Shown in pieces: positions 10,711-57,250 of a DNA stretch of 64,000 bases. The notes under the pieces are model-generated. The model did no database searches and was not told the DNA's origin. It saw nothing but the letters and a program-made list of their open reading frames with translations. A program made the translations under genes and the position numbers. The first letter of the stretch is position 1. Every line of letters starts with the position of its first letter. Origin of the DNA: Sabellastarte sp. h YS-2021 (taxonomy: Eukaryota; Annelida; Polychaeta; Sabellida; Sabellidae); NCBI GenBank assembly GCA_964017235.1, contig OZ024936.1:88200537-88264536 (forward strand), in the 5' to 3' direction.

Positions 10711-11101
10711 TTAGGAGATATGAGCACATTTGCCTTTTTCAGTATTCAAAATAGCTAATTACTCATTTATTTAATTAATTACTCACTCATCTATGAAGCA
10801 ATTCCCCCCAAAAACAATCCCATACAAGCTATTAACCCAATGAACCTCCATACCAAATTTCAGAAAGCTAGGCTTAATAGCATTCCTTAAAATGTCTGGA
10901 AACCAAAGAGCTACTGAAAAGTAGCAAAGTAGCTATTACTCAGTTAGCTATAGAGCTATCATCACCAAAAGCAATCCCATACAAGCTATTAACCCAATAA
11001 ACCTGCATGCCAAATTTGGTAAAGATAGGATAAGAACTGTTGCCTAAAATGTCTGGAAACCAAGTGGGACGCCGGACGCCGGACGCCGGAAAAAGCAAAA
11101 A

Positions 11102-21000: not shown

Positions 21001-24000
21001 CTGCAAATGGTATTATGAAGGAAAGTAACAAGGTAACTGTGTAAGTGTAAAGAGTAGGTTAAAACATATTTAAAGAAATACTGCAAATGCAGTATCCTCG
21101 TACGACCTTGAAGAAGGGGTCCACGGTCAAATCCAACCACACAAAAACATTCCCAGCCCATGATTTCCTATAGGTTGGTTTACCATCCCAAACCTCTAGG
21201 ACCAATAATAAGCGAGTTATAAGCACTTTTAAGTTTGGCTGTCCTTATTTGACCTTGAAGGAGGGGTGCAAAGGTCAAATCTGACCACACCAAAAGATTC
21301 CCAGCCCATGATTTCCTATAGGATGGTTTACCATCCCAAACCTCTAGAACCAATGATAAGCGATTTATAGGCACTTTTAAGTTTGGCTATCTTTGACCTT
21401 GAAGGAGGGGTCCAAGGTCAAATCTGACCACACCAAATGATTCCCAGCCTATGATTTCCTGTAGGTTGGTTTACCATCCCAAACCTGTAGGACCAATAAC
21501 AAGCGAGTTATAAGCAATTTTAAGTTTGGCTATCCTCAACTGACCTTGAAGGAGGGGTCCGAGGTCAAATCTGACCACACCAAAAGAATCCCAGTCCATG
21601 ATTTCCTATACGTTGTTTTACCATCCCAAACCTCTAGGACCAATAATAAGTGAGTTATAAGCACTTTTAAGTTTGGCTATCCTCGTTTGACCTTGAAGAA
21701 GAGGTCCAAGGTGAAATCGGACCACATCAACAGATTCCAAGCCCATGATTTCCTATATGTCTGTTTACCATCCCAAACCTCTAGGACCAATAATAAGTGA
21801 GTTATAAGCACTTTTAAGTTTGGCTATCCTCATTTGACCTTGAAGGAGGGGTCAAAGGTCAAATCTGACCACACCAAAAGATTCCCAGCCCATGATTTCC
21901 TACAGGTTGGTTTACCACCCCAAACCTCTAGGACCAATAATAAGGGAGATATAAGCACTTTTCATGACTGACAAAGAAGCACCTGTGGTGGCCATCTTGT
22001 TTTTCAAAATGAGGCCAAAAATATTCCCAGTCAAGATTTTATAATGAGGAACATATCCTGCGAATTTGAGATCTGTACCTATAATACCCTTTCCTCTAGA
22101 GGGCCAACAAAAGTCCTTGTTTAAAGTCGAATAAACGTCCCTGGCAGCCATCTTGTTTTTCAAAAATATTCCCAGGCAACATTTTATGGTTATTAATATA
22201 TTCTGCAAACTTGAGAAGGCTAGCTATAATATTTTTTTCATTAGAGCGGTAATGGTGAAATCTCTACACACTGCGGCTATCCAGTGGATACAATGATTTA
22301 CTCAATAGTGAGAACCTGAAAGTAGCTATTGCTCAGCTATAGCATGACATAGAGGTCTGCAATTTCACTATGATATAACTGACCAAAAATTATGTGAATA
22401 ACATATTTAAACAAAATACTCTAAATGTAATAGTTTTCAAGTTACAACTGATTTTAACAAAATACTCCAAATGCAATATTTTTCAAGTTACAATTGATTT
22501 ACTCAACAGTCAGTACCTGAAAATAGCTATTGCTCAGTTGTGCCATGAGCTACAGGTCTGTAATTTCACTATGTTATAGCTGACCCAAAAGTGGCTGAAT
22601 AACATATTTACACAAATTTCTGTAAATGCAATAGTTTTCAAGTTATAAATGATTTACTCAACAGTGATAACCTCAAAGTAGCTATTACTCAGCTATGCCA
22701 TGAGCTACAGGTCTGAAATTTTACTATGTTATAGCTGACCCCAAAACAGGTGAATAACATATTGAAACAAAATACTGTAAGTGCAATAGTTTTCAAGTTA
22801 TAAGTGATTTACTCAACAGTGATAACCTAAAAGTAGCTATTACTCAGCTATGCCATGAGCTTCAGGTCTGAAATTTTACTATGTTATAGCTGACCCCAAA
22901 ATAGGTGAATAACATATTGAAACAAAATACTCCAAGTGCAATAATTTTCAAGTTATAAGTGATTTACTCAACAGTGATAACCTAAAAGTAGCTATTACTC
23001 AGCTATGCCATGAGCTACATGTCTGAAATTTTACTATGTTATAGCTGACCCAAAAGTAGGTGAACAACATATTTAAGCAAAATACTGTAAATGCAATATT
23101 TTTCAAGTTACAATTGATTTACTCAACAGTCAGTACCTGAAAATAGCTATTGCTCAGTTGTGCCATGAGCTACAGGTCTGTAATTTCACTATGTTATAGC
23201 TGACCCAAAAGTAGCTGAATAACGTATTGAAACAAAATACTCTAAATGCAATACTTTTCAAGTCATAAGTGATTTCCTCAACAGTGATAACCTAAAAGTA
23301 GCTATTACTCAGCTATGCCATGAGCTATAGGTCTGTAATTTCACTGTGTTATAGCTGACCCAAAAGTAGGTGAACAAAATATTTAAGGAAAATACTGTAA
23401 ATGCAATAGTTTTCAAGTTACAACTGATTTACTCAGTAGTGAGAACCTGAAAATAGTTATTGCTCAGCTATGCCATGAGCTATAGGTCTGTAATTTCACT
23501 ATGTTATAGCTGACCCAAAAGTAGGTGAACAACATATTTTAACAAAATACTCCAAATGCAATATTTTTCAAGTTACAACTGATTTACTCAACATACAGTA
23601 CCTGAAAATAGCTATTGCTCAGTTGTGCCATGAGCTACAGGTCTGTAATTTCACTATGTTATAGCTGATCCAAAAGTAGCTGAATAACATATTTACACAA
23701 ATTTCTATAAATGCAATAGTTTTCAAGCTATATGTGATTTACTCAACAGTGATAACCTCAAAGTAGCTATTACTCAGCTATGCCATGAGCTACAGATCTG
23801 AAATTTTACTATGTTATAGCTGACCCCAAAATAGGTGAATAACATATGAAACAAAATACTCCAAATGCAATAGTTTTCAAGTTATAAGTGATTTACTCAA
23901 CAGTGATAACCTCAAAGTAGCTATTACTCAGCTATGCCATGAGCTACAGGTCTGCAATTTCACTATGTTATAGCTGACCCCAAAATAGGTGAATAACTTA

Positions 24001-27000
24001 TTGAAACAAAATACTCTAAATGCAATAGTTTTCAAGTTATAAGTGATTTACTCAACAGTGATAACCTAAAAGTAGCTATTACTCAGCTATGCCATGAGCT
24101 ACAGGTCTGAAATTTTACTATGTTATACCTGACTCAAAAGTCATATTTATAAGAAATTCTCTAAATGCAATAGTTTTCATGTTACAAGTGATTTTACTCA
24201 AGATGGTAGTTACTGAAAAGCCCAAAAGTAGCTATTACTCACTTAGCTATTGAGACAGACACCCAAGTTACTCACCATGTTGTAGCTATGAAAAAAGTAG
24301 CTGAATAACATATTTTAACAAAATGCTCTAACTGCAACACTTTTCAAGTTATAAGTGATTTAGTGCATGATTTCATGAATTTTAATGCATTAAAAATTAT
24401 TAAAAAAATTTATTAAAAAAAAACTAAGACAGATCCAGGTCTCATACTCCCACAAGAGAATCTACCTCTGGCCTAGTACACATATGCAAGATATGAGAGA
24501 AATCCCTGCAATAGTCACTGAGAAAATTGTGATAAAGTGTTGAAATTTTCACACTTTTGGTGGGGGTACCTCCCTTGTAACGTCTCTAGCAAATAGACGA
24601 ACAGACAGATTTGAATGCCTTGAACACTTTTTCATCCTCGATAGATAAGGTATCTTTTAAAAAAAACAGCATGTCTCTAGGCCTTGTAGTTTTGGAGAAG
24701 AAGATGTTCGCGCGGACGTGTATGCCCACGCCGCAGAGTGACGACATAATGTCAGCTGACTGACAAGTCAGCTGACATAACAAACAAACGCATCTGGCGT
24801 GTGTTACAAAAGGCAATTTACCCAGTAAAGCTGAAAGTCAAACAATAATATGACCATCTCTGAAGATTACATCTACTAGCAATACTTTGAATGACAAGCC
24901 AAATTGTTTTTTTTCCTCCCCATTTCTCTCGGTACTGTAAACTTATTTACACAGAGATTATACGAGAGATTAGGTATCAACTACTGCACTTATTGTGATG
25001 CATGTTTTGTTGGATATTGAAGAAGGAATATATTAAACTAGAAATAGGACGCCCTGTTGATAGTAGCTGCGACATATGAATAGAAACAGGATAGCACAGA
25101 AGAACACACATTATCATGTGTAATGTCCACCCCATGAACCTTTGGCCAAAATTGTACAGTAGTCTTACAAGACCCTGTTTCATTTGTAAAATATATCAGT
25201 GACGCTTAAATATTTATTAGTGTACATGTAAATTATTTCAGCTTCATGCCTTTTTGCATTGGTTGGGTCGAAAATTTTGACGAAGTCACTCTATCTTGCA
25301 CGGTTAAGAAGATAGAAGCAAATTTCTGTTTTTCTATTTTTGGCAAAAATTTGAAAATTCAAAATGGCCGCCATTTTTGGGAAGAGGAAAATTTTTTGAA
25401 AATTGCCAAGAGTACATTTCTTAGATACCCTATGGGTCGAAAATTTCACCGAAATAACTCTATTTTGCACGGTTAAGGGAAATTTGTGTTTTTCCATTTT
25501 GGGCAAAAATTCGAAAATTCAAAATGGCTGCCACATGTGGGGAGGGGAAAATTTTTTGAAAATTGCCAAGAGTACATTCCTTAGATACCCTGTGGGTCGA
25601 AAATTTCGACGAAATCGCTCTATCTCGCACGGTTAAGGAGATAGAAGCAATTTTCTGTTTTGCCATTTTGGGCAAAAATTCGAAAATTCAAAATGGCCGC
25701 CACATGTGGGAAGAGGAAATTTTTTGAAAATTGCCAAGAGTACATTGCTCAGATACCCTGTGGGTCGAAAATTTTGACGAAATCCCTCTATCTCACACGG
25801 TTAAGGAGATAGAAGCAATTTTGTGTTTTGCCATTTTTGGGTAAAATTTGTAAATTCAAAGTGGCTGCCATTTTTGGGGAGGGGAAAATTTTTTAAAATT
25901 TGCCAGCACAATGGTCAGATACCCTGTGGGTCGAAAATTTCGACGAAATCGCTCTATCTCGCACAGTTAAGGAGATAGAAGCAAATTTGTGTTTTGCCAT
26001 TTTTGGCAAAATTCGAAAAATCAAGATGGCCATCATTTTTGGGGAGGGGAAAATTTTTTAAAAATTGCCAAGAGTACAATGCTCAGATACCCTGTGGGTC
26101 GAAAATTTCAACGAAACAGCTCTATCTCGCACGGTTAAGGAGATAGAAGCAAATTTGTGTTTTGCCATTTTGGGGAAAAATTCGAAAATTCAAAATGGCC
26201 ACCATTTTTGGGGAGGGGAAAATTTTTTGAAAATTGCAAGATTACATTCCTTAGATACCCTGTGGGTCGAAAATTTCGACGAAATCGCTCTATCTCGCAC
26301 GGTTAAGGAGATAGAAGCAAACTTGTGTTTTGCCATTTTTGGCAAAAATTCGAAAATTCAAAATGGCCGGCATTTTTGGGGAGGGGAAAATTTTTTGAAA
26401 ATTGCAAAGAGTACATTTTTTAGATACTATGTGGTGGGTCGAAAATTTCGACGAAATCGCTCTATCTCGCACGGTTAAGGAGATAGAAGCAAATTTGTGT
26501 TTTGCCATTTTTGGCAAAAATTCGAAAATTCAAAATGGCCGCCATTTTTGGGGAGGGGAAATTTCAAAGGTCAAATCAAGGTCACACCAATATCCCTGCC
26601 AAGTATCAACTCCCACACAAGACAGTCTCAAGCATATAGCCCAGACAAAATGTTAAATGTCAATGTCACTAGAGCAAGGTCAAAGCTCAAATCAAGCTCA
26701 CACAGCCTCGACAAGAAACTTTTCCTGCCACCCATCCCACCCAGCCATATTAAAGGTCAATGTAACTAAGACAAGGTCAAAGCTCAAATCAAGTTCACAC
26801 ATGCCAGACAAGAAATTTTTCGCACCACCAACCCACCCGGCCCAATGCCGTGAGTAACCGCACAGCTTTTAAAAGCTGTGGATTGAATAAAAGACGATAC
26901 AGACACACACCTCTTCACTCGTATTGGCCATCTTTTCACACCGAGCAACCATTCCTGTGATGTCACTTCCTGGCTGATTCCACAGCAACAAGCGAGATGC

Positions 27001-30000: not shown

Positions 30001-33000
30001 AAAATGTTTATAACATTTTTTTAATATTTAATACCTCAGTATAAACACCCCATCTTGCTCAAAGACTTTCTTCATTTCATCCGTCACTTTGAAATCATCT
30101 CCAGTATACTGAAACTCTAAAATACCATATAAATACAACAAATAATTAGGCTCAAATTTAAAGTGGAACTCTTGCTTAGACTACACTATCTGGGTACATT
30201 TTGAACAAAAACATTGCCACTGGGATCTTGAGCTTTAAACTTTTTATCAAGAGCCAAATTTTGCAAGTGACCATTTTTTTTTTTTTGGAAACCAATTTCT
30301 AGGAAAAAGCAAAATATGTGTTGGGGAGGGCGGGTGGGGAATCTTAATCCTCAAAATGTGTTAATTGGTGCTGTGTACTGAGGTGCACTGAATTGAAAAA
30401 GATTTTTAACAAGAGGAGACTGCCCGTGAACAGGCACTGTGTCAGCTGACTGAGTGTTTTTGATTTGTGAAGGTGATTAGAGGACAGAATAATTATCAGG
30501 AAAAGGGCTGTACAGAAATACAGTAAATGGTAACTGAACAGCAAGTTCGAAAGAAATTCCGAAGCTGACAGAAGAAAAGGATAAAAAAGTTGTGCCCTGT
30601 AAATGGTATTATGAAGGAAAATAACAAGGTAATTGTTTAAGTGTAAAAAATAGGTTAAAACATATTTAAAGAAATACTACAAATGCAATATCCTCATTCG
30701 ACCTTGAAGAAGGGGTCCAAGGTCAAATCTAACCACACAAATACATTCCCAGCCCATGATTTCCTATGGTTTACCATTCCAAACCTCTAGGACCAATTAT
30801 AAATGAGTTATAAGCACTTTTAAGCTTGGCTGTCCTCATTTGACCTTGAAGGAGGGGTCCAAAGGTCAAATCTGACCATACCAAAAGATTCCGAGCCAAT
30901 GATTTCCTATGGGATGGTTTACCATCCCAAATCTCTGTCACCAATAATAAGCGAGTTGTAGGCACTTTCAATTTTCGCTATCCTCATTTGACCTTGAAGG
31001 AGGGTTCCAAGGTCAAATCGGACCATATCAACAGATTCACAGCCCATGATTTCCTGTCTGTTTACCATCCCAAACCTCTGGGACCAATAATAAGCGAGTT
31101 ATAAGCACTTTTAAGTTTGGCTATCCTTGTTTGACCTTGAAGGAGGGGTCATTGAAGGTCAAATCTGACCACACCAAAAGATTCCCACCCCATGATTTCC
31201 TACAGGTTGGTTTATCATCCCAAACCTCTAGGATCAATAATAAGGGAGATATAAGCACTTTTCATGACTGACAAAAAACACCTGTGGCGGCCATCTTGTT
31301 TCTCAAAATGAGGCCAAAAATATTCCCAGACAACATTTTATGGTTATTAATATATACTGCAAACTTAAGAAAGCTAGCTATAATATTTTTTTTCATCAGA
31401 GCAGTAATGGTGAAATCTCTCTCTACACACTGCGGCTATCCAGTGGATACAATGATTTACTCAACAGTGAGAACCTGAAAGTAGCTATTGCTCAGCTATG
31501 CCATGACATAGAGGTCTGCAATTTCACTATGTTATAGCTGACCAAAAATTCTGTGAATAACATATTTAACAAATTACTCTAAATGTAATAGTTTTCAAGT
31601 TACAACTGATTTACTCAACAGTGACAACCTCAAAGGAACTATTACTCAGCTATGCAATGAGCTACATGTCTGAAATTTTACTATGTTATAGCTAACCCAA
31701 AAGTAGATGAACAACATATTTAAGCAAACTACTGTAAATGCAATAGTTTTCAAGCTACAACTGATTTACTCAATAGTGAGAACCTGAAAATAGCTATTGC
31801 TCCGCTATGCCATGAGCTATAGGTCTGTAATTTCACTATGTTATAGCTGACCCAAAAGTAGGTGAACAATATATTTTAACAAAATACTCCAAATGCAATA
31901 TTTTTCAAGTTATAGCTGATTTACTCAACAGTCAGTACCTGAGAATAGCTATTGCTCAGTTGTGCCATGAGCTATAGGTCTATAATTTCACTATGTTATA
32001 GCTGACAAAAAAGTAGCTGAATAACATATTTGCACAAATTTCTGTAAATGCAATAGTTTTCCCATTATAACTGATTTACTCAACAGTGAGAACTTCAAAG
32101 TAGCTATTACTCAGCTATGAAATGAGCCACAGGTCTGAAACTTCACTATGTTATAGCTGACCCCAAAATAGGTGAATAACATATTGAAACAAAATACTCT
32201 AAATGCAATAGTTTTCAAGTTATAAGTGATTTACTCAACAGTGATAACCTAAAAGTAGCTATTACTCAGCTATGCCATGAGCTACAGGTCTGCAATTTTA
32301 CTATGTTATAGCTGGCCCAAAAGTAGCTGAATAACATATTTATACGAAATTCTCTAAATGCAATAGTTTTTAAGTTACAAGTGATTTTACTCATGATGGA
32401 AGTTACTGAAAAGCCCAAAAGTAGCTATTACTCACTTAGCTATTGAGACAGACACCCAACTTACTCACCATATTGTAGCTATGAAAAAAGTAGCTGAATA
32501 ACATATTTTAACAAAATGCTCTAAATGCAACACTTTTCAAGTTATAAGTGGTTTACTCAACAGTGATAACCTAAAAGTAGCTATTACTCAGCTATGCCAT
32601 GAGCTACAGGTCTGAAATTTTACTATGTTATAGCTGACCCAAAAGTAGCTGAATAACATATTTATACGAAATTCTCTAAATGCAATAGTTTTCAAGTTAT
32701 AAGCGATTTACTCAACAGTGATAACCTAAAAGTAGCTATTACTCAGCTATGCCATGAGCCACAGGTCTGAAATTTCACTATGTTATAGCTGGCCCAAAAG
32801 TAGCTGAATAACATATTTATACGAAATTCTCTAAATGCAATAGTTTTTAAGTTACAAGTGATTTTACTCATAATGGAAGTTACTGAAAAGCCCAAAAGTA
32901 GCTATTACTCACTTAGCTATTGAGACAGACACCCAACTTACTCACCATATTGTAGCTATGAAAAAAGTAGCTGAACAACATATTTTCACAAAATGCTGTA

Positions 33001-33675
33001 AATGCAACACTTTTGAAGTTATAAGTGATTTAGTGCATGATTTCATGAATTTTAATGCATTAAAAATTATTAAAAAAATTTATTAAAAAAAAACTAAGAC
33101 AGATCCAGGTCTCATACTCACACAAGAGAATCTACCTCTGGCCTAGTACATATATGCAAGATATGAGAGAAATCCCTGCAATAGTCACGGAGAAAATTGT
33201 GATAAAAAGTTGAAATTTTCACACTTTTGGTGGGGGTACCCCCCTTGTAATGTCTCTAGCAAACAGACGAACAGACAGATTTGCATGCCTTGAACAATTT
33301 TTCATCCTCGATAGATAAGGTATCTTTTAAAAAAAACAGCATGTCTCTAGGCCTTGTAGTTTTGGAGAAGAAGTTGTTCACGCGGACGCGGATGCGGACG
33401 CGGACGCACACGCCGCAGAGTGATGACATAATGTCAGCTGACTGACAAGTCAGCTGACATAAAAATTTATGTCTTAGACACTTAAGTGTTTTATTCAGAG
33501 ACAGGCTTAAATATTTTGACATAAGCAAACTTTTGCTTGTGAAAACAGTTTCTTTACAAGCAAATTTCTACAAATGGCTAGCCAATTGATTCTTGCCTCT
33601 GGTGAATGCTGGGCCCAATTTCACTTTCTGTATTTGTACAGATATCTCCTGGTAAACCTCACGTGGGATGGACAT
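11921..33675 (-). CDS. PhyH-family Fe(II)/2-oxoglutarate dioxygenase, nine exons, intact
   Basis: Joining nine GT-AG exons gives 876 nt, 291 residues plus TGA. The product belongs to the phytanoyl-CoA dioxygenase (PhyH) family: Fe(II)- and 2-oxoglutarate-dependent oxygenases of about 290 residues with a double-stranded beta-helix. Metal ligands are H122 and D124 (WHQDYG) and H213 (NVLH). R224, eleven residues after H213 in DMRRW, is placed to bind 2-oxoglutarate, the same H-to-R spacing as I recall for human PHYH. Other family landmarks are [10 protein letters not shown] (102-111), NGCLQV (153-157), PGSH (159-162) and HHARYTPL near 242-249. No signal peptide, peroxisomal PTS1 or membrane segment is visible (C terminus ASNFH), so it is probably cytosolic. 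The substrate is unknown; it resembles the broad animal/bacterial PhyH group rather than vertebrate PHYH or PHYHD1, so no symbol is given. Introns are 775-6360 bp and mostly repeats, yet frame and splice sites are undamaged, which implies selection. Confidence 0.92.
12300..12345 (+). repeat. HINE-B 3' hairpin remnant
   Basis: Inverted repeat GCACAGCCCT-CA-AGGGTTGTGG followed by TGTAAAA, the same terminal hairpin as at 16725-16760. No satellite units remain beside it. Confidence 0.55.
12526..12780 (-). repeat. degenerate copies of the exon 8 end plus splice donor
   Basis: On the minus strand, at least four segments ending near 12739, 12671, 12581 and 12530 align to the last about 35 bases of exon 8 and its donor. 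They read [31 protein letters not shown] and [11 protein letters not shown] where the exon reads [11 protein letters not shown]. Donor positions read ATAAGA, GTAACT, GTAAGA and ATAGGG. A possible fifth copy ends near 12641 with GTAAGG. Spacing is irregular, 33-90 bp. They sit 1.5 kb downstream of the true exon in intron 8. Confidence 0.65.
12960..14000 (+). mobile_element. old, diverged HINE-A copy
   Basis: Several units still show satellite-A landmarks (CGCTCTATCTC, GTTAAGGAGAT, GTGTTTTGC, AAAATGGCTGCCA), but with many substitutions and indels. The right flank resembles the HINE-A right domain (TTAATTAAT near 13830). It lies in intron 8 between the two groups of exon 8 duplicates. Confidence 0.65.
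14258..14308 (-). repeat. 51-bp tandem duplicate of the exon 8 end, donor inactivated
   Basis: Immediately downstream of exon 8 on the minus strand, 51 bases repeat the exon end and donor. It reads [10 protein letters not shown], and the donor GTAAGG has become GAAAGG. Splicing at the upstream true donor (14313-14318) is therefore unchallenged by this copy. Confidence 0.85.
14319..14470 (-). CDS. PhyH exon 8 with distal His and 2OG-binding Arg
   Basis: 152 nt, residues 202-252, out phase 0. Acceptor GTTTTAG, donor GTAAGG. Encodes [11 protein letters not shown] (H213), DMRRW (R224) and the conserved [11 protein letters not shown] end. The exon end and donor are duplicated 51 bp downstream in the intron. 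Confidence 0.95.
14843..14880. repeat. (TTGA)n-like microsatellite
   Basis: Imperfect GATTGATT/GACT repeats in intron 7. Confidence 0.6.
15246..15381 (-). CDS. PhyH exon 7
   Basis: 136 nt, residues 157-201 plus one base, out phase 1. Acceptor ATTACAG, donor GTTTGA. Encodes [13 protein letters not shown] and ends at GEMEPG, just before the distal histidine exon. Confidence 0.93.
15845..16762 (+). mobile_element. HINE-B copy 1: 146-bp satellite with terminal hairpin
   Basis: About six imperfect units rich in AAGGTCAAAGGTCAA and CCAACCAATGTCCCTACCAA, followed by a C-rich segment (CCCGCTGCCCGCCCACCC), CATCCGGACACCATGGGTG and the terminal hairpin CAGCCCTTAAGGGTTGTGG near 16728. Same module order as HINE-A, with unrelated sequence. 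Lies in intron 6 of the PhyH gene. Confidence 0.75.
17047..17435. mobile_element. hAT-type MITE with 8-bp TSD
   Basis: 389 bp, ends TAGGGCTG...CAGCCCTA, flanked by the exact 8-bp duplication ATATTAAG (17039-17046 and 17436-17443). Terminal CAGCCCTA-type repeats and an 8-bp target duplication are hallmarks of the hAT superfamily. No ORF, hence non-autonomous. In intron 6. Confidence 0.9.
17668..17758 (-). CDS. PhyH exon 6
   Basis: 91 nt, residues 126-156, out phase 0. Acceptor TTTTAG, donor GTAAAC. Encodes YWYKNG through CIKKNGCLQ, the barrel strands after the HxD motif. Confidence 0.94.
18885..19872 (+). mobile_element. HINE-B copy 2 array
   Basis: Units with the landmark ACCATGACG or ACCATGATG at 19102, 19248, 19395, 19541 and 19687 (period 146-147) plus less regular units on the left. 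The right side has the (CCCA)n/(CCCG)n stretch at 19785-19850 and CATCCGGACACCATGGGTG, but the terminal hairpin is missing. Lies in intron 5. Confidence 0.8.
19952..20447 (+). mobile_element. solo HINE-CD 3' end
   Basis: Matches the last about 500 bp of the element at 20809-24780 (GACACCCAAGTTACTCACCAT, AAGTAGCTGAATAACATATT, GATCCAGGTCTGA, ACAGCATGTCTCTGGGCC, CGCCGCAGAGTGAC) but lacks the final hairpin. Ends about 11 bp before the exon 5 donor. Confidence 0.8.
20459..20550 (-). CDS. PhyH exon 5 with the HxD metal motif
   Basis: 92 nt, residues 96-126, out phase 2. Acceptor TTGACAG, donor GTAACT. Encodes [12 protein letters not shown] and the iron-binding WHQDYG (H122, D124). A HINE-CD 3' end stops about 11 bp from the donor. 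Confidence 0.94.
21090..21960 (+). repeat. satellite C array (146-147 bp) of HINE-CD copy 1
   Basis: Six units carrying CCAAACCTCTAGGACCAATA and CACTTTTAAGTTTGGCTATC. Confidence 0.9.
22270..24240 (+). repeat. satellite D array (155 bp) of HINE-CD copy 1
   Basis: About 13 units carrying GTAGCTATTACTCAGCTATG, ATGCAATAGTTTTCAAGTTA and GATTTACTCAACAGTGATAA. Confidence 0.92.
24746..24780 (+). repeat. terminal hairpin of HINE-CD copy 1
   Basis: Near-perfect palindrome around GTCAGCTGACTGACAAGTCA. The same hairpin ends copy 2 at 33462. Confidence 0.88.
25036..26562 (+). mobile_element. HINE-A copy 2 with 8 units, right end replaced
   Basis: Starts AACTAGAAATAGGACGCCC, carries the standard leader and eight satellite-A units (near 25361, 25530, 25695, 25861, 26030, 26198, 26366, 26535). 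In the last unit, right after GGGGAGGGGAAA, the sequence changes abruptly into HINE-B units. The HINE-A right domain and its hairpin are absent. Confidence 0.85.
26563..26884 (+). mobile_element. HINE-B-type 3' part fused to HINE-A copy 2
   Basis: Begins AAAGGTCAAATCAAGGTCAC, two short B-like units separated by C-rich stretches (CCACCCATCCCACCCAG, CCACCAACCCACCCGG), then a terminal hairpin GCACAGCTTTTAAAAGCTGTG at 26860-26880. This hairpin sequence differs from that of HINE-B copy 1, so it is a separate subfamily. It ends about 30 bp from the exon 4 donor. Confidence 0.75.
26911..27021 (-). CDS. PhyH exon 4
   Basis: 111 nt, residues 59-95, phase 0 at both ends. Acceptor TTGTAG, donor GTGTGT. 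Encodes the segment with LLLWNQPG and MVARCEKM. The donor lies about 30 bp from the end of an inserted element. Confidence 0.93.
27022..28030. other. intron 3, no further feature seen
   Basis: AT-rich intronic DNA without array units, ORFs with domains or palindromes that I can recognise. Confidence 0.5.
28031..28109 (-). CDS. PhyH exon 3
   Basis: 79 nt, residues 32-58, out phase 0. Acceptor TTGTAG, donor GTAAGT (consensus). Encodes [17 protein letters not shown] and on to AWD. Confidence 0.92.
29380..29800 (-). repeat. interspersed repeat family E, copy 1 (intron 2)
   Basis: The reverse complement aligns with 55310-55700: shared blocks TTTCAAACTTGG, AATAAAGAACTTATGG, GAGGCCCATAAA and a TTT(A/T)GCCCTGTAAT-like block, plus GTCGTGCC at one end. 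No coding sign. Confidence 0.65.
30035..30116 (-). CDS. PhyH exon 2
   Basis: 82 nt, residues 5-32, phase 1 in, phase 2 out. Acceptor TTTTAG before 30116 and donor GTATTA after 30035. Encodes the N-terminal helix ([17 protein letters not shown]) that precedes the catalytic barrel in this family. Confidence 0.9.
30408..33462 (+). mobile_element. HINE-CD copy 2, fills most of intron 1
   Basis: Same left end (AACAAGAGGAG with GTGCCCGTGAAC hairpin) and same terminal TGTCAGCTGACT hairpin as copy 1, but only about four C units (30690-31260) and about eight to nine D units (31440-32900). The pre-terminal module (AGTTACTGAAAAGCCCAAAAG through GAAAAAAGTAGCTGA) appears twice, near 32400 and 32876. Occupies 3055 of the 3546 bp of intron 1. 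Confidence 0.8.
33663..33675 (-). CDS. PhyH exon 1 (coding part, 13 nt)
   Basis: ATG at 33675 with A at -3, coding MSIP plus one base, then a strong donor GTGAGG (33662-33657). The single leftover base joins exon 2 AG to make a Gln codon. This start was chosen because it alone gives the phase exon 2 needs and reads [13 protein letters not shown], a plausible PhyH N terminus. A short exon remains the least certain part of the model. Confidence 0.72.
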
Positions 33676-42725: not shown

Positions 42726-44053
42726 AACTAGAAATAGGACGCCCTGTTGATAGTAGCTGCGACATATGAATAGAAACAGGATAGCATAGAAGAACACACA
42801 TTATCATGTGAAATGTCCACCCCATGAACCTTTTGCCAAAATTGTACAGTAGTCTTGCAAGACCCCGTTTCATTTCTAAAATATATCAATGATGCTTAAA
42901 TATTTCTTAGCGTACATATAAATTATTTCAGCTTCATGCCTTTTTGCATTCGTTGGGTCGAAAACTTTGACGAAATCACTCTATCTTGCACGGTTAAGAA
43001 GATAGAAGCAAATTTCTGTTTTTGGCAAAAATCGAAAATTTAAAATGGCTGCCATTTTGGGGAAGAGGAAAATTTTTTGAAAATTGCCAAGAGTACATTC
43101 CTTAGATACCCTATGGGTCGTAAATTACAACAAAATAACTCTATCTCGCACGGTTAAGGAGTTAGAAGCAAATTTGTGTTTTGCCATTTTCGGCGAAAAT
43201 TCAAAATGGCTGCCATTTTTGGGGAGGGAAATTTTTTTTTAAATTACCACGAGTACGATGCTCAGATACCCTATGGGTTGAAACTTTCGACGAAATCGCT
43301 CTATCTCGCACGGTTAAGGAGATAGAAGCAAATTTATGTTTTGCCATTTTTGGAAAAAATTCGAAAATTCAAAATGGTCGCCATTTTTGGGGAGGGGAAA
43401 ATTTTTTGAAAATTGCCAAGATTACATTCCTTATATACCCTGTGGTCGAAAATTTCGACAAATCGCTCTATCTCGCACAGCTAAGGAGATAGAAGCAAAT
43501 TTGTGTTTTGCCATTTTTGGTAAAAATTCGAAAATTCAAAATGGCTGCCATTTTTGGGGAGGGGAACATTTTTTGAAAATTGCAAAGAGTACATTCTTTA
43601 GATACCCTGTGGGTCGAAAATTTCGACGAAATCGCTCTATGTTTAGGAGATATGAGCACATTTGCCTTTTTCAGTACTCAAAATAGCCAATTACTCATTT
43701 ATTTAATTAATTACTAACTCATCTATGAAGCAATTCTCCCTAAAAGCAATCCCATACAAGCTATTAACCCAATGAACCTCCATACCAAATTTCAGAAAGA
43801 TAGGCTTAATAGCATTCCTTAAAATGTCTGGAAACCAAAGAGATACTCAAAAGTAGCTATTACTCAGTTAGCTATAGAGCTATCATCACCAAAAGCAATC
43901 CCATACAAGCTATTAACCCAATAAACCTGCATGCCAAATTTGGTAAAGATAGGATAAGAACTGTTGCCTAAAATGTCTGGAAACCAAGTGTGACGCCGGA
44001 CGGCGGAAAAAGCAAAAATAATATGTCTACCCCAAAGTGGGGTGGACATAATA
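42726..44053 (+). mobile_element. HINE-A copy 3, nested in the DIRS 5' region
   Basis: Same left end (AACTAGAAATAGGACGCCC) and terminal hairpin (ATGTCTACCCC / GGGGTGGACAT at 44030-44050) as copy 1, with only four to five satellite-A units (42990-43640) and a shorter GACGCCGGACGG microrepeat. It separates DIRS gag (42699) from the right DIRS inverted repeat (44133), so it inserted after the DIRS. Confidence 0.85.
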
Positions 44054-47619: not shown

Positions 47620-49060
47620 TTCACCAAATTTGCAGGGTATCTTCATTGGGGGGTAAGCTTCTCTGGGAAGAAAAATAGCCTCATTCTGGAAAACAAGATG
47701 GCCGCCACGGGCATTTCTTTGAAAATAATCTACATTTTCCTACTGGCTGTTTCTAATTGGTAGAAGGTTGAATTTCTTCATACATGATATGTGTAACAGA
47801 TATACATGTCCTCCACAACCTTGCAGACATTTGACTTTGAAGCTCTTAATTCAAGGTCATCCACAGAGAGCCGAAGTAACCCACATAGCGGACTTTAAAA
47901 GTGCTTGTATCTCCCATATTATTGATTCTTGAGACTTGCAATGTGAAACAAACCTATAGGAAATCATGTGCTGCGAATCTTCTGATGTTGTCAGATTTGA
48001 CCTTGGACCCCTCCTTCAAGGTCAAATGAGGATAACCAAACTTAAAAGTGCTTATAACTTGCTTATTATCGATCCTAGAGGTTTGGGATGGTAAAACAAC
48101 ATATAGGAAATCATGTGCTGCGAATCTTCTGGTGTGGTCGGATTTGACATTGGGCTCCTCCTTTAAGGACAAATGAGGATAGCCAAACTTAAAAGTGCTT
48201 ATAAATCCCTTATTATTGGTACTAGAGGTTTGGGATGGTAAACCAACATAGAGGAAATCATGGGCTGGGAATCTTCTGGTGTGGTTGGATTTGACCTTAG
48301 ACCCCTCCTTCAAGGTCAAATGAAGATAACCAAACTTAAAACTGCTTATAACTCGCTCATTATTGGTCCTAGAGGTTTGGGATGGTAAACCAATCTATAG
48401 AAACTCATGGGCTCGGAATCTTTTGGTGTGGTCAGATTTGACGTTGGGCCCCTCATTCAAGGTCAAATGAGGAGAGCCAAACTTAAAATTACTGATAACT
48501 CGCTTATTATTGGTCCTAGAGGTTTGGAATGAACCTACAGGAAGTCATGGGCTGGGAATGTTTTCATATGGTCAGATTTGACCTTAGACCCCTCCTTCAA
48601 GGTCAAACGAGGATAGCCAAACTTAAAAGTGCTTATAACTCGCTTATTATTGGTCCTAGAGGTTTGGGATGGTAAACCAACCTATAGAAAATCATGGGCT
48701 GGGAATCTTTTTGTGTGGTCAGATTTAACCTTGGGCCCCTCGTTCAAGGTCAAATGAGGATAGCCAAACTTAAAAGTGCTTATAACTCGCTTATTATTGG
48801 TTCTAGAGGTTTGGGATAATAAACCAACCTATAGAAACTCATGGGCTGGGAATGTTTTTGTGTGGTCAGATTTAACCTTGGGCCCCTCGTTCAAGGTCAA
48901 ATGAGGATAGCCAAACTTAAAAGTGCTTATAACTCGCTTATTATTGGTCCTAGAGGTTTGGGATAATAAACCGACATATAGGAAATCATTGGCTGGGATT
49001 CTTCTGATGTTAGATTTGACCTTTGGCCCCTCTTTTAAGGTCAAATGATGGTTCACTGAC
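47620..49060 (-). mobile_element. inverted HINE-CD fragment: eight satellite C units
   Basis: Reverse orientation. The bridge segment (AACAAGATGGCCGCCAC near 47695) is followed by C units with AAGGTCAAATGAGG-type landmarks near 48019, 48167, 48313, 48459, 48600, 48746, 48894 and 49038 (146-148 bp). Neither D units nor terminal hairpins are present. Confidence 0.85.
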
Positions 49061-50229
49061 TTTGGTGAGTTGTCTTTCTGGTGGATACAAATTTGCATTG
49101 GTTCTTCGATGTGTAGGTCTAGTTATACTTGATCATACCCTTTAGGTTTGAATATTACACAGAAACTTGCTGTATTGTCTATTTTGAAAATAAATGTCCT
49201 TAACAATTGACAAAAATATATTTTTTGTATTATTATAAACACTGTTATGTACATTACTCTGCACAGTGCTTTTTCTAGAGTATATTTAGTTAATTTAGAA
49301 ACTTTTTGAAGAGAACAGCCAGTTGCTATACTGAGAGATAAAAGCACATAAACACACACACAGTGCATTTTCTCACTTGCCACATTTTAGGCGGGAGAAG
49401 TAGTGAGGAAATAAAACATCAGTTTTTTTTTTAAAAAGCTGTGATATATTGCCTGGTTTATATATCTAAACACCAAATATTTGAATTAAAAGCTCTATCT
49501 TCTTTAAAGTGATACCAAAATTGCAAAAATTATAAAGTAATGGAAGTTCTAAGATATCAAATTTTGTTGAAAGGGCAAGTCTAAGCAGGCAAGAAATAGA
49601 AGCATATTTCAATAAAATTTACCAGTAACTAAGCCTTTAATTTGCTTAAATATAACATGTTTCCTGATTTCTTACAGATAAAATACTTACATACACTGAA
49701 AGTTTATTGTCTATTCTATCAATACATGTAAAAAATATTTCTTGTGTATTTTTTCTACTCCAGTTTATCAGTGGTGAAAACTTTCCCAAATTGTAGATCA
49801 TGAAGCATGTCTTTGTAAAGTTTAATCTGCAGGAACAAGGATATATATACCTACTGCTCCTTGTCTGGGATACTATTAAACCTGTATTTTTACATGTTCT
49901 TATTCCAAATAAATAGATATATATGTTGATTATCCATATGAGTTTTCACAAAAAGATCCTAACCTACAGGAAAGTGGTAACACAAATACTGCATTTACAC
50001 AAATGTAAAAACTGTTATATGGTGTATATACACTGAAGTTTTGAAATCAAAATATTCCAAGGGTGTATCAGATTAAATATCCGCATACTTTTTTTTTGAA
50101 AATCACAATAATCAACAGGAAAACAGTGACACAAACACTGTTTTTCACAAATGTAATACTGTTTGGTGTAATAAAATTTGAGATATAAATATTCCAAGCA
50201 CTTATTATATTTCAGTTAATATCCAAGAT
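49061..50229. other. AT-rich, no gene seen
   Basis: No domain or repeat that I recognise. Probably the 3' flank of the transposase relic that follows on the minus strand. Confidence 0.4.
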
Positions 50230-52980
50230 CTTAAGATTGGGGAGTTTTCTTATTTGCTTTTTTGGTGTGTTCAGTTTGACTTGGGATTTTTGGATCAATT
50301 AGTGTGTGATGTTCTCTCATTATAAATCGAAGCTTTTGAGAGAGATTTGCCACACGCCACAAATTTCTTTCTATTCTGTTAAATTCCTTGTGAATGCATG
50401 GCCATGCCAAATCACCATTTCTCCATCCATTCCAGTTCATGGTCTTTTAAAATATGATGTTTTGGCAACAAAGCTCATGGAAATTTTGTCTGAAAAAAAT
50501 TCAAATATTTCTGAATCTTGTTCTCAATTTCGGCTATTTCCGTCTCAATTACACTTTCCATCTGTCCAACCTCACTGTGAACTCTTTCTAATAATGTATT
50601 TAACGTGTGAAATTTGTTGAGATTTTCTCAACTCTCTGGTGTAGTTCTATATTACCTGATAATTCACAATTTTTTTCTTGAATAGTGACTGAAATTTTGT
50701 CCTGTGCATTTTGTTTAATGCATTTTGAGCAGTGATTTCCAATGAATGATCTGGAGTGGAATGCCTGTTGAACAATATTTTGTTGTCTTGAAGTTTCTAA
50801 AATCACTGCAACAAGAGGGCCACTTTGCACTGAAAGTGTTGGTTTGCATTTATCCATCTTTTTCGCAGTACTGGCAATTTTCGACATTAATGTTTCTTTC
50901 TCCTCATTGATAAGATCACTGAACACTTTTGTTCTTTAAGAAACTCCAGGTGGTTTAGTAATTTCCTTTTGGTTCTTAAATCTGCAATATGGGTGTGAAA
51001 CAGTGAATTATCTAGTTTTGCTGAAGAAAGTGACACTCTTTCAGCCAATTCAACGTCTACTTGATGGAACTCCTGTTCAAACATATCATGATGCTTCTTC
51101 ACAATGCCCAGTAAATTGTGTAGGTATGACGGACAAGCATGTGACAAAGCAATGTTCCACAATAGTTTATGAATCACATTATTGAAGTTTCCTGCCAGAG
51201 CACAATATCTCTTTCATTGTTGACAAATGTTTCATTGTCTTCAATCATGTTTCTTAATTTCCGCTGTCTTGCTTTGCCTCTGATGCCCAAAGGAATTTGA
51301 ATGGCTTCATAATGGAAAGCAAAAATGTTTTCTCCTGGTGCCAGATATCCCTTACAAACTTGCTAGAATGCATATTCTCCAAATAAAAACACTTAACTTT
51401 TTGTTGGTCTAAATTTCATTGTGTTGCAATTTGAAGATTTTGTCAGCATATAAACTGGTCAGTGATTCCAAATTTGGATACAAATCTTGTGCTGAAATAC
51501 AACAAAAAGCAAAAGTATTTTCTGTGGAATTTGGTTTCTCCATATTGCACACTTTTAGGCAGAGCTTAAATGAACTGCCACCATGGTCACCTCCAATCTT
51601 TATCCACACTTTATATTCTGGCATACCCTCTTTCCAAACTGGTTCATGTTATTCTTCATAGTTGTTCAGTCATTCCTTAATAAATGAACATGTACAACAG
51701 GTAGATGCTTTTCAGCCAATCCACCAACACTGCCATGTGTCTTTTCATCCTTTTCTTTTACTTTTAGCATTTTCACTTTTAGATGATCACCTAGTGTTCT
51801 TTTCCTTTCAAACCCCTCTTTCTTTTCACCCTCACATTTAACACCTGCCTGCAAATTAAAGATATTGCTTCTACTTCCTGTGCTAGTTCCATGAAAGTCT
51901 TAAAACAGTTCAACATTCACTCTCTGCTTCTTCAATAAAATTTTCAATTATGATGATTGCTGGATGTGCTGTGAGTCTTCATTTGTACCAGCATTAGCAG
52001 ATAGGTTGCAACCTCTCTAGCTGTTTTTCATTTGAATGGAGATGCCACATCAAGACTTGATTTTATGGCTTTTACAAGTCGCTTCTATACAATGGGTTGA
52101 CCCCCTGTTTTGCACTTTATAATGGAATTGGTTTTTGAAAAATTTAATTTTCTTTTGGCTAAATGTGTATGAAGTCTTTCTTCTGTTTTTGTAAGTGGTT
52201 TTGCTAAAGATGAAGGAACAGATTTCTTCACTGATCGGATAGGTAACATTCTGTTAGATTAATCTGCATAGAAAAGTGCAGGGGATGTTTGTATTTCTAT
52301 GGTAATGCATGTTGCACTTTTATCCTTTGGTGTACTATGCATTTGAAAACCGCTTGTTGTATTGTCTGATATTGGTAGAAATTGACCTTCATCAATATTT
52401 AGATTTGAATGACAGTAGTGTAGATTAAATGTTTGTAAGGGGCCCAAGTAACTGCACTTCTTGCACTTGACAACAGTTGTTAAAAGCTGTGTCTGAAATC
52501 TTTCTTCAACTGGTTAGATTTGAGCATATAGGACAATTGACTCGATCTACCTGTCTATGTTTGAAGTAGTTTGACAAACAATCAGCACAGAAGTAGTGGT
52601 CACATGTTGTTTTCACTAATTTTACTGAATACATACCTTGACAAATTTGGCATATGTATGTACTGAGAAGTTCACTGGGTATTTTAGAGGAGTCAATTTT
52701 ATAATCACTTGAGATATCCCATGAAGTGCATAAATGGTCAAAAACATATCAATCATTTTTGCTAATAGCAGTTTCTTTTTTTTTTGCTGCCTCTTTTGGA
52801 GATTTTATTGGCTCTACCTTTACTCATCTGGCCAGTATAGAGCTTGCACACATTGCAGTCAATATGTTTGTGGGATTTTCACAATCGTGAAGCAGATCCT
52901 GCCTTTTCTTTTTCACCTAAATATTTGTCTCCGTCCATTTTCTTATTTTCTTTTTGTTTACACTGTGACTGTTTTGCAAG
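50230..52980 (-). pseudogene. RAG1-N-like (N-RAG-type) transposase relic
   Basis: Minus-strand protein broken by many frameshifts and stops. Its order from high coordinates: a DCNVCKLYTG segment (near 52850); IPSELLSTYICQICQG leading into a complete RING finger (52524-52652) with C..C, TTCDHYFCADCLSNYF and NCPIC; then VVKCKKCSYLGPLQ..NLHYCHSN, a C2H2-like finger placed like the one after the RING in vertebrate RAG1. Next come a charged section (51666-51854), WIKIGGDHGGSSFKLCL (51409-51624, likely first catalytic Asp region), VFIWRICILASL-type remains (51390-51300), a helical section (50887-51177) and HSRSFIGNHCSKC (50600-50926), and the C-terminal part to 50230. Panchin and Moroz described N-RAG-TP, an Aplysia transposon with a RAG1 N-terminal-like protein; this relic looks like the same kind of element. 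Terminal repeats were not found. Confidence 0.65.
52524..52652 (-). other. RING finger domain within the transposase relic
   Basis: All C3HC4 ligands present in one open frame: CQIC, then C and H in TTCDH, FCADC, and CPIC. A TGA follows five codons later. Confidence 0.85.
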
Positions 52981-52999
52981 TTTCAAAGAGATAAATAAT

Positions 53000-53814
53000 C
53001 ACTGGTCAGCAGGATATAAAAAGAATATTCTGCACCAGCATGACTCATGGCAATGAGCAGTGCATGTGTATAATGTATTAGGGTAAAGGCTAATTGATAT
53101 GATTAAGCTTGAATTATAAAGGACAAGTTTGTTTCATTGTAAAACTGGACGGAAATAATTGCCTTTTTTCCCACACATCATTCATGCTGATCTAAAAGGA
53201 TGTAGTGTACTATATACACATAACAAACATGCAACTGTATTTGGCTTACAATGTGAAAAGATATCTCTGTTTTAAACTTGTAATAAATCACAGAAACAAA
53301 AATACACAAAGAATATAAAGCATGCATTAAAAAGTATAACTTTTCTAGTTTGCATATATCTATTTTGTGTTCTATTAGTAAATCAGGAAACTTTTTTTAT
53401 CTTTAATTTAAAATGGTAAGTAATTCATCTTAGCTTCAACAGTTATCTTTATATATATTTTTGTATACTAATGGAATGTGCATAAAATCAATTCTATCTT
53501 TAGTAATATAAAACACAAAATTGTTTTCAATAGATTCTACAAAACTTGATCTTTTAATACATATAAATTTTACATTTGTACAATGATTCTAAATATTTTT
53601 ATCTTCACTTTTAAAATAATGACCTGCTTTGATAGACAGCTTTTTTCCTGAGAAAAGTTATATGTGTGTACAATACAGGATCTGTTGTCTACTCCGCCCC
53701 CACACACACAATGCATAACAGAAAATTTTTCTAATAAACATTCAGATTTTGCTTGAAAAAACCTCCATGTCTGGAAACTTTACTGAAAATACATAATCCT
53801 GGTTAATATAAAGC
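53000..53814. other. AT-rich, no gene seen
   Basis: No supported feature beyond a short CA-type repeat near 53700. Confidence 0.45.
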
Positions 53815-56109: not shown

Positions 56110-57250
56110 AAAACAGATTACAAATCAAATTGCATACATATTCCATTCAGAAATAATTTGATAAATTTAACAATATCTATATAATTACATAACATATATG
56201 TATTAGCATATGCTTTTAGGTTTAACTTAACTCCATTTAAAAAGTTATACTTTGACACACTATTTTTATTATTGCTGTTGAGCCATTCTTTAAAAACACA
56301 ATACTGAACTACAGCTAGTGCCCAGTCAATATTTTTATTTTGACACCCCATGCAGTATATGAGCTTTTAGACTACATTCTATTGTAAGCATAAAATAAAT
56401 TCTCACCCACATAGTTTTCTTATATGGACACTGAAAAAGCAGATGCTCTACTGTTTCTATTTCTCCACACAGTTTGCACCTATCATCTGGTGCTTTCCCC
56501 CACTTGTACAGTTTTTTCTACAAGGTAGTATATTACTTAAAAGTTTGTAGTTATACTCACATATTGTTTGTCTGGGATACTTTTAACCTTTGAAATATAT
56601 AACGGTGAGTAATTATAGTTTTGTATGTTGAGAAGTTTATTGTAGTAGTCCCAAGATTTTGGTGGTACTAACTGTTTTTGTATTATCTTATGATAGTGAT
56701 CTTTGGTAGATATAAAATTAAGTTCAACCTTTTTAATACTTTGTATCTGACTGGTTGGATATGAAGAAAAGTTCTTCGTCAAGAGTTTTCTTATACCATA
56801 TGTAATCTGATATAATTCACTTAGATAGTTTGTCTTGTTTGACAATTTATTGAAAAGGAATGAATTACATATTTTGCCTTTAATAATCTTTAAGTTACTG
56901 TAATAATCCCACTTTCAATCCATTTTGGAAAATACAGTATCTCATTGTTTTTATTTAAGATCTGTTTATTTCCCCAAATACAAATTTCTTTTATATCAAT
57001 ATCATCAGCCTTAGCTTCATAAAAAGTTTATAAAAAGTGGGAATATGATTAAAACTCTGATACCTGCTAATTTTAGATTCAGAAAGGAGATCAATAATTT
57101 CCAGAACATGGAGTTTTTTAAAAATACAGGTTGGAATATAAGCACAAGTGTCATCCTTGTTTGCATTACATAAACGTTTACCCAGGAGGTTTTTAATGCA
57201 TGGAAATATAAAGCTAATATGTAATCTTTGTCTGTGAAAAGTTTCATGGT
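56110..57250 (-). pseudogene. LINE C-terminal remnant with Cys/His motif
   Basis: Minus-strand frames (57017-57247, 56537-56845, 56118-56351), joined by shifts, read like the end of a non-LTR retrotransposon ORF2. Key piece near 56420-56520: LYKWGKAPDDRCKLCGEIET, then VEHLLFQC, that is C..C...ET..H....C, the C-terminal zinc-knuckle-like motif of several LINE clades, followed by a basic helix (KFIKLFLNG). The RT core itself is absent. The clade cannot be set. Confidence 0.65.

Follow-up and report, generated by a model that had tools for sequence, protein, structure and literature searches.

The window copy and its relatives

The stretch of DNA analysed here (the window; 64,000 nucleotides on contig C14 of the 1.79-Gb genome of Sabellastarte sp.) contains on its minus strand a dead transposon of 4,508 bp. 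Its boundaries were set by the sharp ends that became apparent on comparison with sixteen relatives, which were fetched with their flanks from the same genome. Listed from the 5′ to the 3′ side of the element, the features are as follows (window positions):

49262..53769, minus strand: the whole element, a decayed DNA transposon, very probably of Chapaev type, subfamily A, 4,508 bp, delimited by alignment with other copies
53770..53773, minus strand: target-site duplication on the 5′ side, CAGA on the minus strand (TCTG on the plus strand)
53731..53769, minus strand: 5′ terminal repeat, decayed, with CATGGAG at the heptamer position and a second block that is also mutated
52509..52748, minus strand: frame with IPSELLS and a C3HC4 RING (CQIC..CDH..FCADC..CPIC); Pfam RING E 1.2e-8, over the cut-off
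52262..52513, minus strand: frame encoding the finger behind the RING, which is of C2HC type in relatives
51412..51648, minus strand: frame with GGDHGGSSFK, holding the probable first catalytic Asp; DUF1280 E 1.4e-10, 41.6 bits; 78% identity to L031
50890..51213, minus strand: core frame, from its helical portion; 81% identity to the intact relative L031
50603..50935, minus strand: core frame, from its helical portion; 78% identity to L031
50234..50446, minus strand: C-terminal frame, IHKEFNRIERN..., in which GEQGGES (with the probable catalytic Glu) is unreadable
49262..49291, minus strand: 3′ terminal repeat, CACAGTG, 16-bp spacer and TTTAGTT
49258..49261, minus strand: target-site duplication on the 3′ side, CAGA on the minus strand

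The initial annotation of this DNA had rightly placed a real element in the interval 50230..52980, but the true unit is wider and extends from 49,262 to 53,769 on the minus strand. The RING and the preceding IPSELLS that it described were recovered in the frame at 52509-52748. A finger does follow the RING, though not of the C..C..H..H type that had been proposed, since the relatives show C-x2-C-x11-H-x-C (C2HC).

At the DNA level, the element is 87.4% (49262-51910), 89.2% (51913-52951) and 87.0% (52951-53761) identical to L031, and with 87-89% identity over most of its length this likeness is not due to chance. The copy is dead, as the initial annotation had stated: the RING, the finger and the GGDHGG stretch lie in separate open frames with a broken reading, and 328 bp present in L031, comprising the start of the open reading frame and the first ~83 codons, are absent. 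The RAG1-like region in front of the RING is consequently visible in relatives only. When read against the alignment of the relatives, neither the CLWC nor the GEQGGES motif was found in the frames of the window copy. A reading of the locus as a host gene was ruled out by the terminal repeats, the duplications and the copy number.

The existence of intact relatives, which had been suspected, was confirmed. With the RING peptide as query at least 149 matches at E ≤ 1 were obtained in the same genome (150 of 219 candidates scored), the best one besides the query itself sharing 90% identity over 78 aa; the weakest matches at the tail of the list are probably unrelated RINGs. Seven of the 149 lie in open frames of at least 900 aa. 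The core query gave 93 matches at E ≤ 0.001. Frames of at least 900 aa were found in seven of the 16 fetched loci, six with a full-length ATG frame of 1,023-1,081 aa and one (L032) with a late start. Young copies within a subfamily are 97-99% identical and, accordingly, the relatives of the window copy have apparently been mobile recently, and between subfamilies, intact proteins from B, C and D share 47-54% identity with A. The dN/dS ratio was below 1 in nine of ten pairs of relatives (L031/L040 0.24, L036/L035 0.24, L036/L044 0.26, L031/L041 0.36; the other six 0.40, 0.47, 0.48, 0.56, 0.91 and 2.9, the last value resulting from one synonymous change), and it ranged from 0.41 to 0.82 for five pieces of the window copy compared with L031. 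Despite their wide scatter, these ratios suggest that the protein was under selection during the spread of the family.

Subfamily C includes two short derivatives of 1.93 and 1.95 kb that retained ~0.7-1 kb of each end. In the short deletion derivative L053, frames of the RAG1-like pre-RING region are kept (L053:742-1247) and the catalytic core is lost; if expressed, it could yield a DNA- or partner-binding fragment. Directly next to one subfamily-C element we observed a frame of 437 aa that encodes a NADAR domain (L036:39-1352, minus strand; E 5.9e-16), the 5′ end of which overlaps the start of the element by ~20 bp.

Terminal repeats, spacers and duplications

The search for terminal repeats in the same genome that the initial annotation had recommended was successful, and 4-bp duplications were found along with them. 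The ends of the elements consist of two parts, CACAGTR...TTTAGTT. In six subfamilies the spacer between them measures 25 bp on the 5′ side and 16 bp on the 3′ side, and each end carries the TTTAGTT block, in opposite orientations. The heptamer CACAGTG is identical to the RSS consensus quoted in an excerpt of PMC8289069, and it reads CACAGTA in subfamilies C-F. In the window copy, the RSS-like heptamer at the 3′ end is intact, and the adjoining spacer differs from that of L031 in its first and last base.

A pattern scan of 17 sequences located both ends in 12 of them. All 12 copies carried an exact 4-bp duplication and a 3′ spacer of 16 bp, and the 5′ spacer measured 25 bp in 11 of them and 26 bp in one; a 5-bp duplication, as is typical of RAGL/TransibSU and Transib elements, was present in none of the 12. 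One or both ends were missing by pattern in the remaining five (L035, L037, L045, L046 and the window copy), of which the window copy and L045 were read by hand. The two short derivatives of subfamily C both had 4-bp duplications, and in older copies of subfamilies E and F the duplication was recognised by eye with four of four bases in L045 and L057 and three of four in L055 and L056. Spacers of 25 and 16 bp were also seen in three copies of subfamily E and one of F, where the 5′ spacing of L055-L058 is not independent evidence because these loci came from a pattern list in which TTTAGTT had to stand at 25 bp at the 5′ end; no such condition applied to their 3′ spacing, nor to the ends of subfamilies A-D and of L045. 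L058 was dropped, as it lacked a 3′ end and its 5′ heptamer was damaged. Subfamily F was defined by its end sequences together with a nearby RING match (42%). On comparing one sequence from each of the six subfamilies, identity amounted to 92% in the heptamer, 100% in TTTAGTT and 34% in between, where 26-29% would be expected from composition.

Genome-wide, the 16-type pattern occurred 65 times versus 0 times for the reversed control, and the looser 25-type pattern 126 times versus 74. Every facing pair within 12 kb (36 of 36) joined a 25-type with a 16-type end, in a count that takes in these two spacings alone and to which other spacings are invisible. Pairs of 16/16 or 25/25 or facing outward were absent among the places covered (65 of 65 for the 16-type and 100 of 126 for the 25-type). 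At G000:C11:65004312-65004589, two equally oriented ends of the 16-type are separated by 248 bp, possibly owing to a nested or tandem insertion.

We infer that a transposase dimer would pair two unlike ends, one having the 25-bp and the other the 16-bp spacer. Alternatively, the 25/16 asymmetry may be inherited baggage without any role in pairing, the second block then binding another factor or being part of a promoter. All copies stem from one ancestor, so their pairings are not independent trials, and invertebrate RAGL enzymes have been argued to be rather insensitive to end asymmetry (excerpt of PMC7204232); nevertheless, the blocks and their spacings persisted in six subfamilies while the sequence between them is close to composition level, the block is found at both ends in opposite orientation, and assays of ProtoRAG, which is related by fold, showed a preference for unequal ends (excerpt of PMC8289069). 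We therefore regard baggage as possible, albeit on balance unlikely.

Composition of the element protein

Intact proteins of the family comprise, in this order, a pre-RING region with conserved Cys/His, a GRP motif, a C3HC4 RING, a C2HC finger, a basic linker and a DUF1280 core, and this order is common to the subfamilies that were aligned. DUF1280 (PF06918) was detected in all four proteins given, at E 2.5e-16 to 1.4e-21 and 60-78 bits against a curated cut-off of 25. The frame with GGDHGGSSFK in the window copy matches it as well, in line with the earlier suggestion that this stretch may hold the first Asp of a DDE triad, which we consider probable. A model of the core built from 19 rows was modest in quality (mean pLDDT 63, pTM 0.45; 43 was the pLDDT of a whole-protein model). 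Its predicted order is a strand with D567, two further strands, a helix, a strand followed by D637, a helical insert and a helix with E975 (D567, D637, E971, E975, C656, C659, H949 and H954 are numbered according to the L031 protein). When the predicted core was compared with 350,542 PDB chains using Foldseek, ranks 1-10 were taken by RAG1 (E 2.8e-7 to 8e-5) and ranks 11-15 by HzTransib (E 1.8e-4 to 7.4e-3), the next match being unrelated (E 0.093). Thus, all 15 matches below E 0.01 were RAG1 or Transib, at low TM-scores of 0.19-0.33. The core model therefore suggests a RAG1/Transib-type DDE fold.

Individual residues were compared with mouse RAG1. The spacing D637-x18-C-x2-C (C656-C659) and the spacing H949-x4-H954 are those of mouse RAG1; H949 is replaced by Q in L037, the other residues being conserved in the alignment. 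E975, in GGES, aligns by eye with the E of GNES in RAG1, and a Q stands there in three of five alignments shown. Among 19 copies, obtained with a search pattern that required E971, E975 is replaced by D in L047 and by K in L044, while E971 is kept in all 10 alignment rows covering that position. Either of the two, E975 or E971, could serve as the third catalytic residue. With a transposase that brings together unequal ends, cleavage would occur just outside CACAGTR through D567, D637 and the glutamate of GEQGGE (E975 or E971), and insertion would proceed with a 4-bp stagger.

The profile comparison with RAG1 proposed in the initial annotation gave a divided outcome, as the pre-RING region matches RAG1 and the core resembles it in fold only. 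The core profile found no RAG1 match up to E 10, hhalign of the core against a single mouse RAG1 sequence gave a probability of 0.2 on the percent scale, and the element proteins had no match to the RAG1 Pfam family. By comparison, a mouse RAG1 query detected the RAG1L structure 6b40 at E 5.7e-68 and the HzTransib transposase 6pqn at E 0.0028. The RAG1 family and the mouse RAG1 core found no match in the genome studied here, a search that was run without a positive control, and an NCBIfam search returned nothing above the cut-off.

A RAG2-like gene was not seen in the 12 copies with both ends, where short exons would escape this search. The opposite strand of these copies has no frame of at least 150 aa, and all same-strand frames of that size belong to the transposase region, except that L034 has one of 155 aa close to its 5′ end. 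A 373-aa frame of a DDE_Tnp_4 transposase (L037:6881-7999, minus strand; E 1.9e-32) lies between subfamily-D ends that are 7.8 kb apart, which marks it as a nested insertion of one transposon inside another. The domain order of RAG1 (Chapa, RING, finger, DDE core), the RSS-identical heptamer and RAG1 as best fold match could suggest a RAGL or TransibSU element, that is, one directly related to the RAG1-RAG2 transposon but secondarily without RAG2. We consider this very unlikely and rejected membership in RAGL or Transib, since the duplications measure 4 bp in 12 of 12 copies and in two of two short derivatives, as opposed to 5 bp in RAGL, Transib and RAG (excerpt of PMC7204232), and since the core lacks the sequence similarity through which mouse RAG1 does detect RAG1L and HzTransib; the frames of the 12 copies likewise argue against it. 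Together, the 4-bp duplications, the lack of a RAG2-like frame and the undetectable core similarity to RAG1 assign the family to the Chapaev type rather than to RAGL or Transib.

In the N-terminal part, a pre-RING profile of eight sequences had four matches in the PDB up to E 10. The best was the RAG1 N-terminal domain 21wb, with a whole-sequence E of 3.5e-4 (its two stretches, at 0.074 and 7.2, are not significant singly); the others were an affitin at 0.68, which is unrelated, and two RAG1 entries of full length (5.2 and 5.3). The RAG1 words matched by the profile are HQARLRHFCRICGNR and IDVKADVDSIHPTEFCHDC. Full-length mouse RAG1 was colinear through the pre-RING region and the RING, albeit weakly (whole-sequence E 0.0066, stretch 0.92). 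Based on its similarity to the RAG1 N-terminal domain, and not on a Chapaev profile, the pre-RING region would correspond to Chapa. The RAG1-type N-terminal arrangement that had been proposed is hence borne out by the relatives. In a wider profile, RNF4 and BRCA1 matched the RING region better than did the RAG1 RING-finger unit 1rmd (3.3e-6), and TRIM RINGs likewise outscored the RING of RAG1. A best RING match outside RAG1, which the initial annotation had named as grounds for refutation, did therefore occur, but a RING alone is generic, and the pre-RING region points to RAG1. Capture of the RING and finger block from a TRIM/RNF-like host E3 ligase with convergence on RAG1, which these RING scores would allow, is extremely unlikely and was dismissed on the pre-RING evidence, since RAG1 was the sole significant PDB match of that region and TRIM/RNF gave none, mouse RAG1 is colinear through both regions, and the domain order is common to the aligned subfamilies. 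By analogy with RAG1, the RING might act as an E3 ligase or as a dimerisation unit that regulates the protein.

Residues 128-139 of the L031 protein, between the pre-RING region and the RING, comprise a conserved GR pair and the conserved GRP motif. The latter resembles an AT-hook, which would fit the AT-rich ends of the elements. The GGRPR of RAG1 is its nonamer-binding motif, and a GGQP/KxRK stretch that follows the finger in the element proteins appears GGRPR-like by eye. We do not claim it as a nonamer-binding counterpart, as in the full profile search the RAG1 rows among the best 60 of 121 aligned with nothing but the N-terminal region or the RING.

Relation to known systems and neighbouring sequence

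Chapaev elements generate target-site duplications of 4 bp. The element family agrees with them in this respect and in its DUF1280 core, its Chapa-like zinc region followed by a RING and its CA..TG ends; it differs in the fixed 25/16 spacers and the exact RSS heptamer, for which limited searches of open-licence literature turned up no description in Chapaev. No description of a spacer rule for Chapa-RING Chapaevs was found there either (Repbase entries were outside the search), and the excerpts of PMC3630058 and PMC7642931 contain nothing on Chapaev duplications or ends. DUF1280 represents Chapaev transposases, which form one clade with RAG1 in the RNase H-like superfamily (excerpt of PMC3985635). 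A Chapa zinc region followed by a RING has been described in two Chapaev subgroups, and a common ancestor of Chapaev, Transib and RAG has been proposed in which the core was joined to Chapa and RING from the outset (Kapitonov and Koonin 2015, excerpt of PMC4411706); a Chapa-RING N terminus shared by RAG1 and Chapaev transposons is thus an existing proposal. The CMCT clade is characterised by C(2)C and H(3-4)H between the second D and the last E, mostly CA..TG ends and duplications of 2-5 bp (excerpt of PMC12730594), features which C656-C659, H949-x4-H954, the CA..TG ends and the 4-bp duplication of our family fit.

RAGL and ProtoRAG resemble the family in their RAG1-type N terminus, core fold and ends starting with CAC, and the ends of ProtoRAG are also two-part and asymmetric (27/31, most active as unequal pairs in assays; excerpt of PMC8289069). 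They differ by 5-bp duplications, a RAG2L gene, a detectable RAG1 core similarity and, in ProtoRAG, the heptamer CACTATG; the C-terminal Cx2Cx3GHx4C motif of RAGL was absent from the aligned C termini on inspection. In the ends of invertebrate RAGL elements CAC agrees with the RSS, whereas the rest of the heptamer differs: CACTATG in ProtoRAG (excerpt of PMC8289069) and CACTWMC, within CACTWMCAAAC, in protostomes (excerpt of PMC7204232). Transib has in common with the element family the DDE fold, including C(2)C and H(3-4)H, and ends starting with CAC. It is distinguished by 5-bp duplications and by the lack of a RAG1-like N terminus (excerpt of PMC8355894), neither of which the element family shows, and by mostly symmetric ends (excerpt of PMC8289069). 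Vertebrate RAG1 and its RSSs have in common with our family the domain order, the heptamer CACAGTG and the pairing of a long-spacer with a short-spacer signal; the vertebrate nonamer is ACAAAAACC with spacers of 12/23, as compared with TTTAGTT and 16/25 in the elements, in which no RAG2 was seen.

We conclude that the window copy is, with high probability, a dead cut-and-paste transposon of the Chapaev kind with recently mobile-looking relatives, whose ~1,030-aa protein consists of Chapa, RING and C2HC units and a RAG1/Transib-type DDE core. Its domain order, terminal repeats, duplications, near-identical copies and deletion derivatives were observed directly. The family is new, though of a kind already known, namely Chapaev with a RAG1-like N terminus, and it was placed by its features. 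Panchin and Moroz reportedly noted in 2008 that N-RAG-TP has RSS-like ends. N-RAG-TP of Aplysia is a transposon composed wholly of RAG1 N-terminal-like sequence (excerpt of the review PMC8355894); our elements likewise encode a RAG1 N-terminus-like protein and differ in having a full DDE-type core. Compared by description alone, the two could be the same family.

A broader interpretation, rather improbable as a whole, is that of a RAG2-less Chapaev transposase with a 12/23-like rule (16/25) and two-part ends bearing the exact RSS heptamer, where the Chapa-RING unit and unequal pairing would both derive from a Chapaev-RAG ancestor that predated RAG2. If this were true, unequal paired signals would reach beyond the RAG transposons, for which they have been argued to be ancestral (excerpt of PMC8289069). 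An apparently recently mobile non-RAGL family that combines the RAG1-type N terminus with the exact heptamer of the RSS and, in six subfamilies, with spacers of fixed but unequal length touches on two questions, the origin of the RING-bearing N terminus of RAG1 and the rise of the 12/23 rule. It offers material for asking directly, by biochemistry, if unequal pairing predates RAG2, and strictly paired end signals of two lengths may help to date the origin of immune gene shuffling.

Elsewhere in the window, a fragment of the tail of a LINE-type reverse transcriptase was present at 56338-56517 (minus strand; zf-RVT E 4.3e-8). Tandem arrays, grouped by reading their consensus units, consist of 160-169-bp units with the same start (8440-10732, 25264-26561 and 42954-43640), 143-147-bp units (21093-21962, 30689-31262 and 47895-49048), 155-bp units (22456-24141 and 31448-33032) and 146-bp units (15862-16675 and 18952-19779). 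As the units recur as separate arrays across the window, the satellites seemingly spread block by block, perhaps with mobile elements as carriers.
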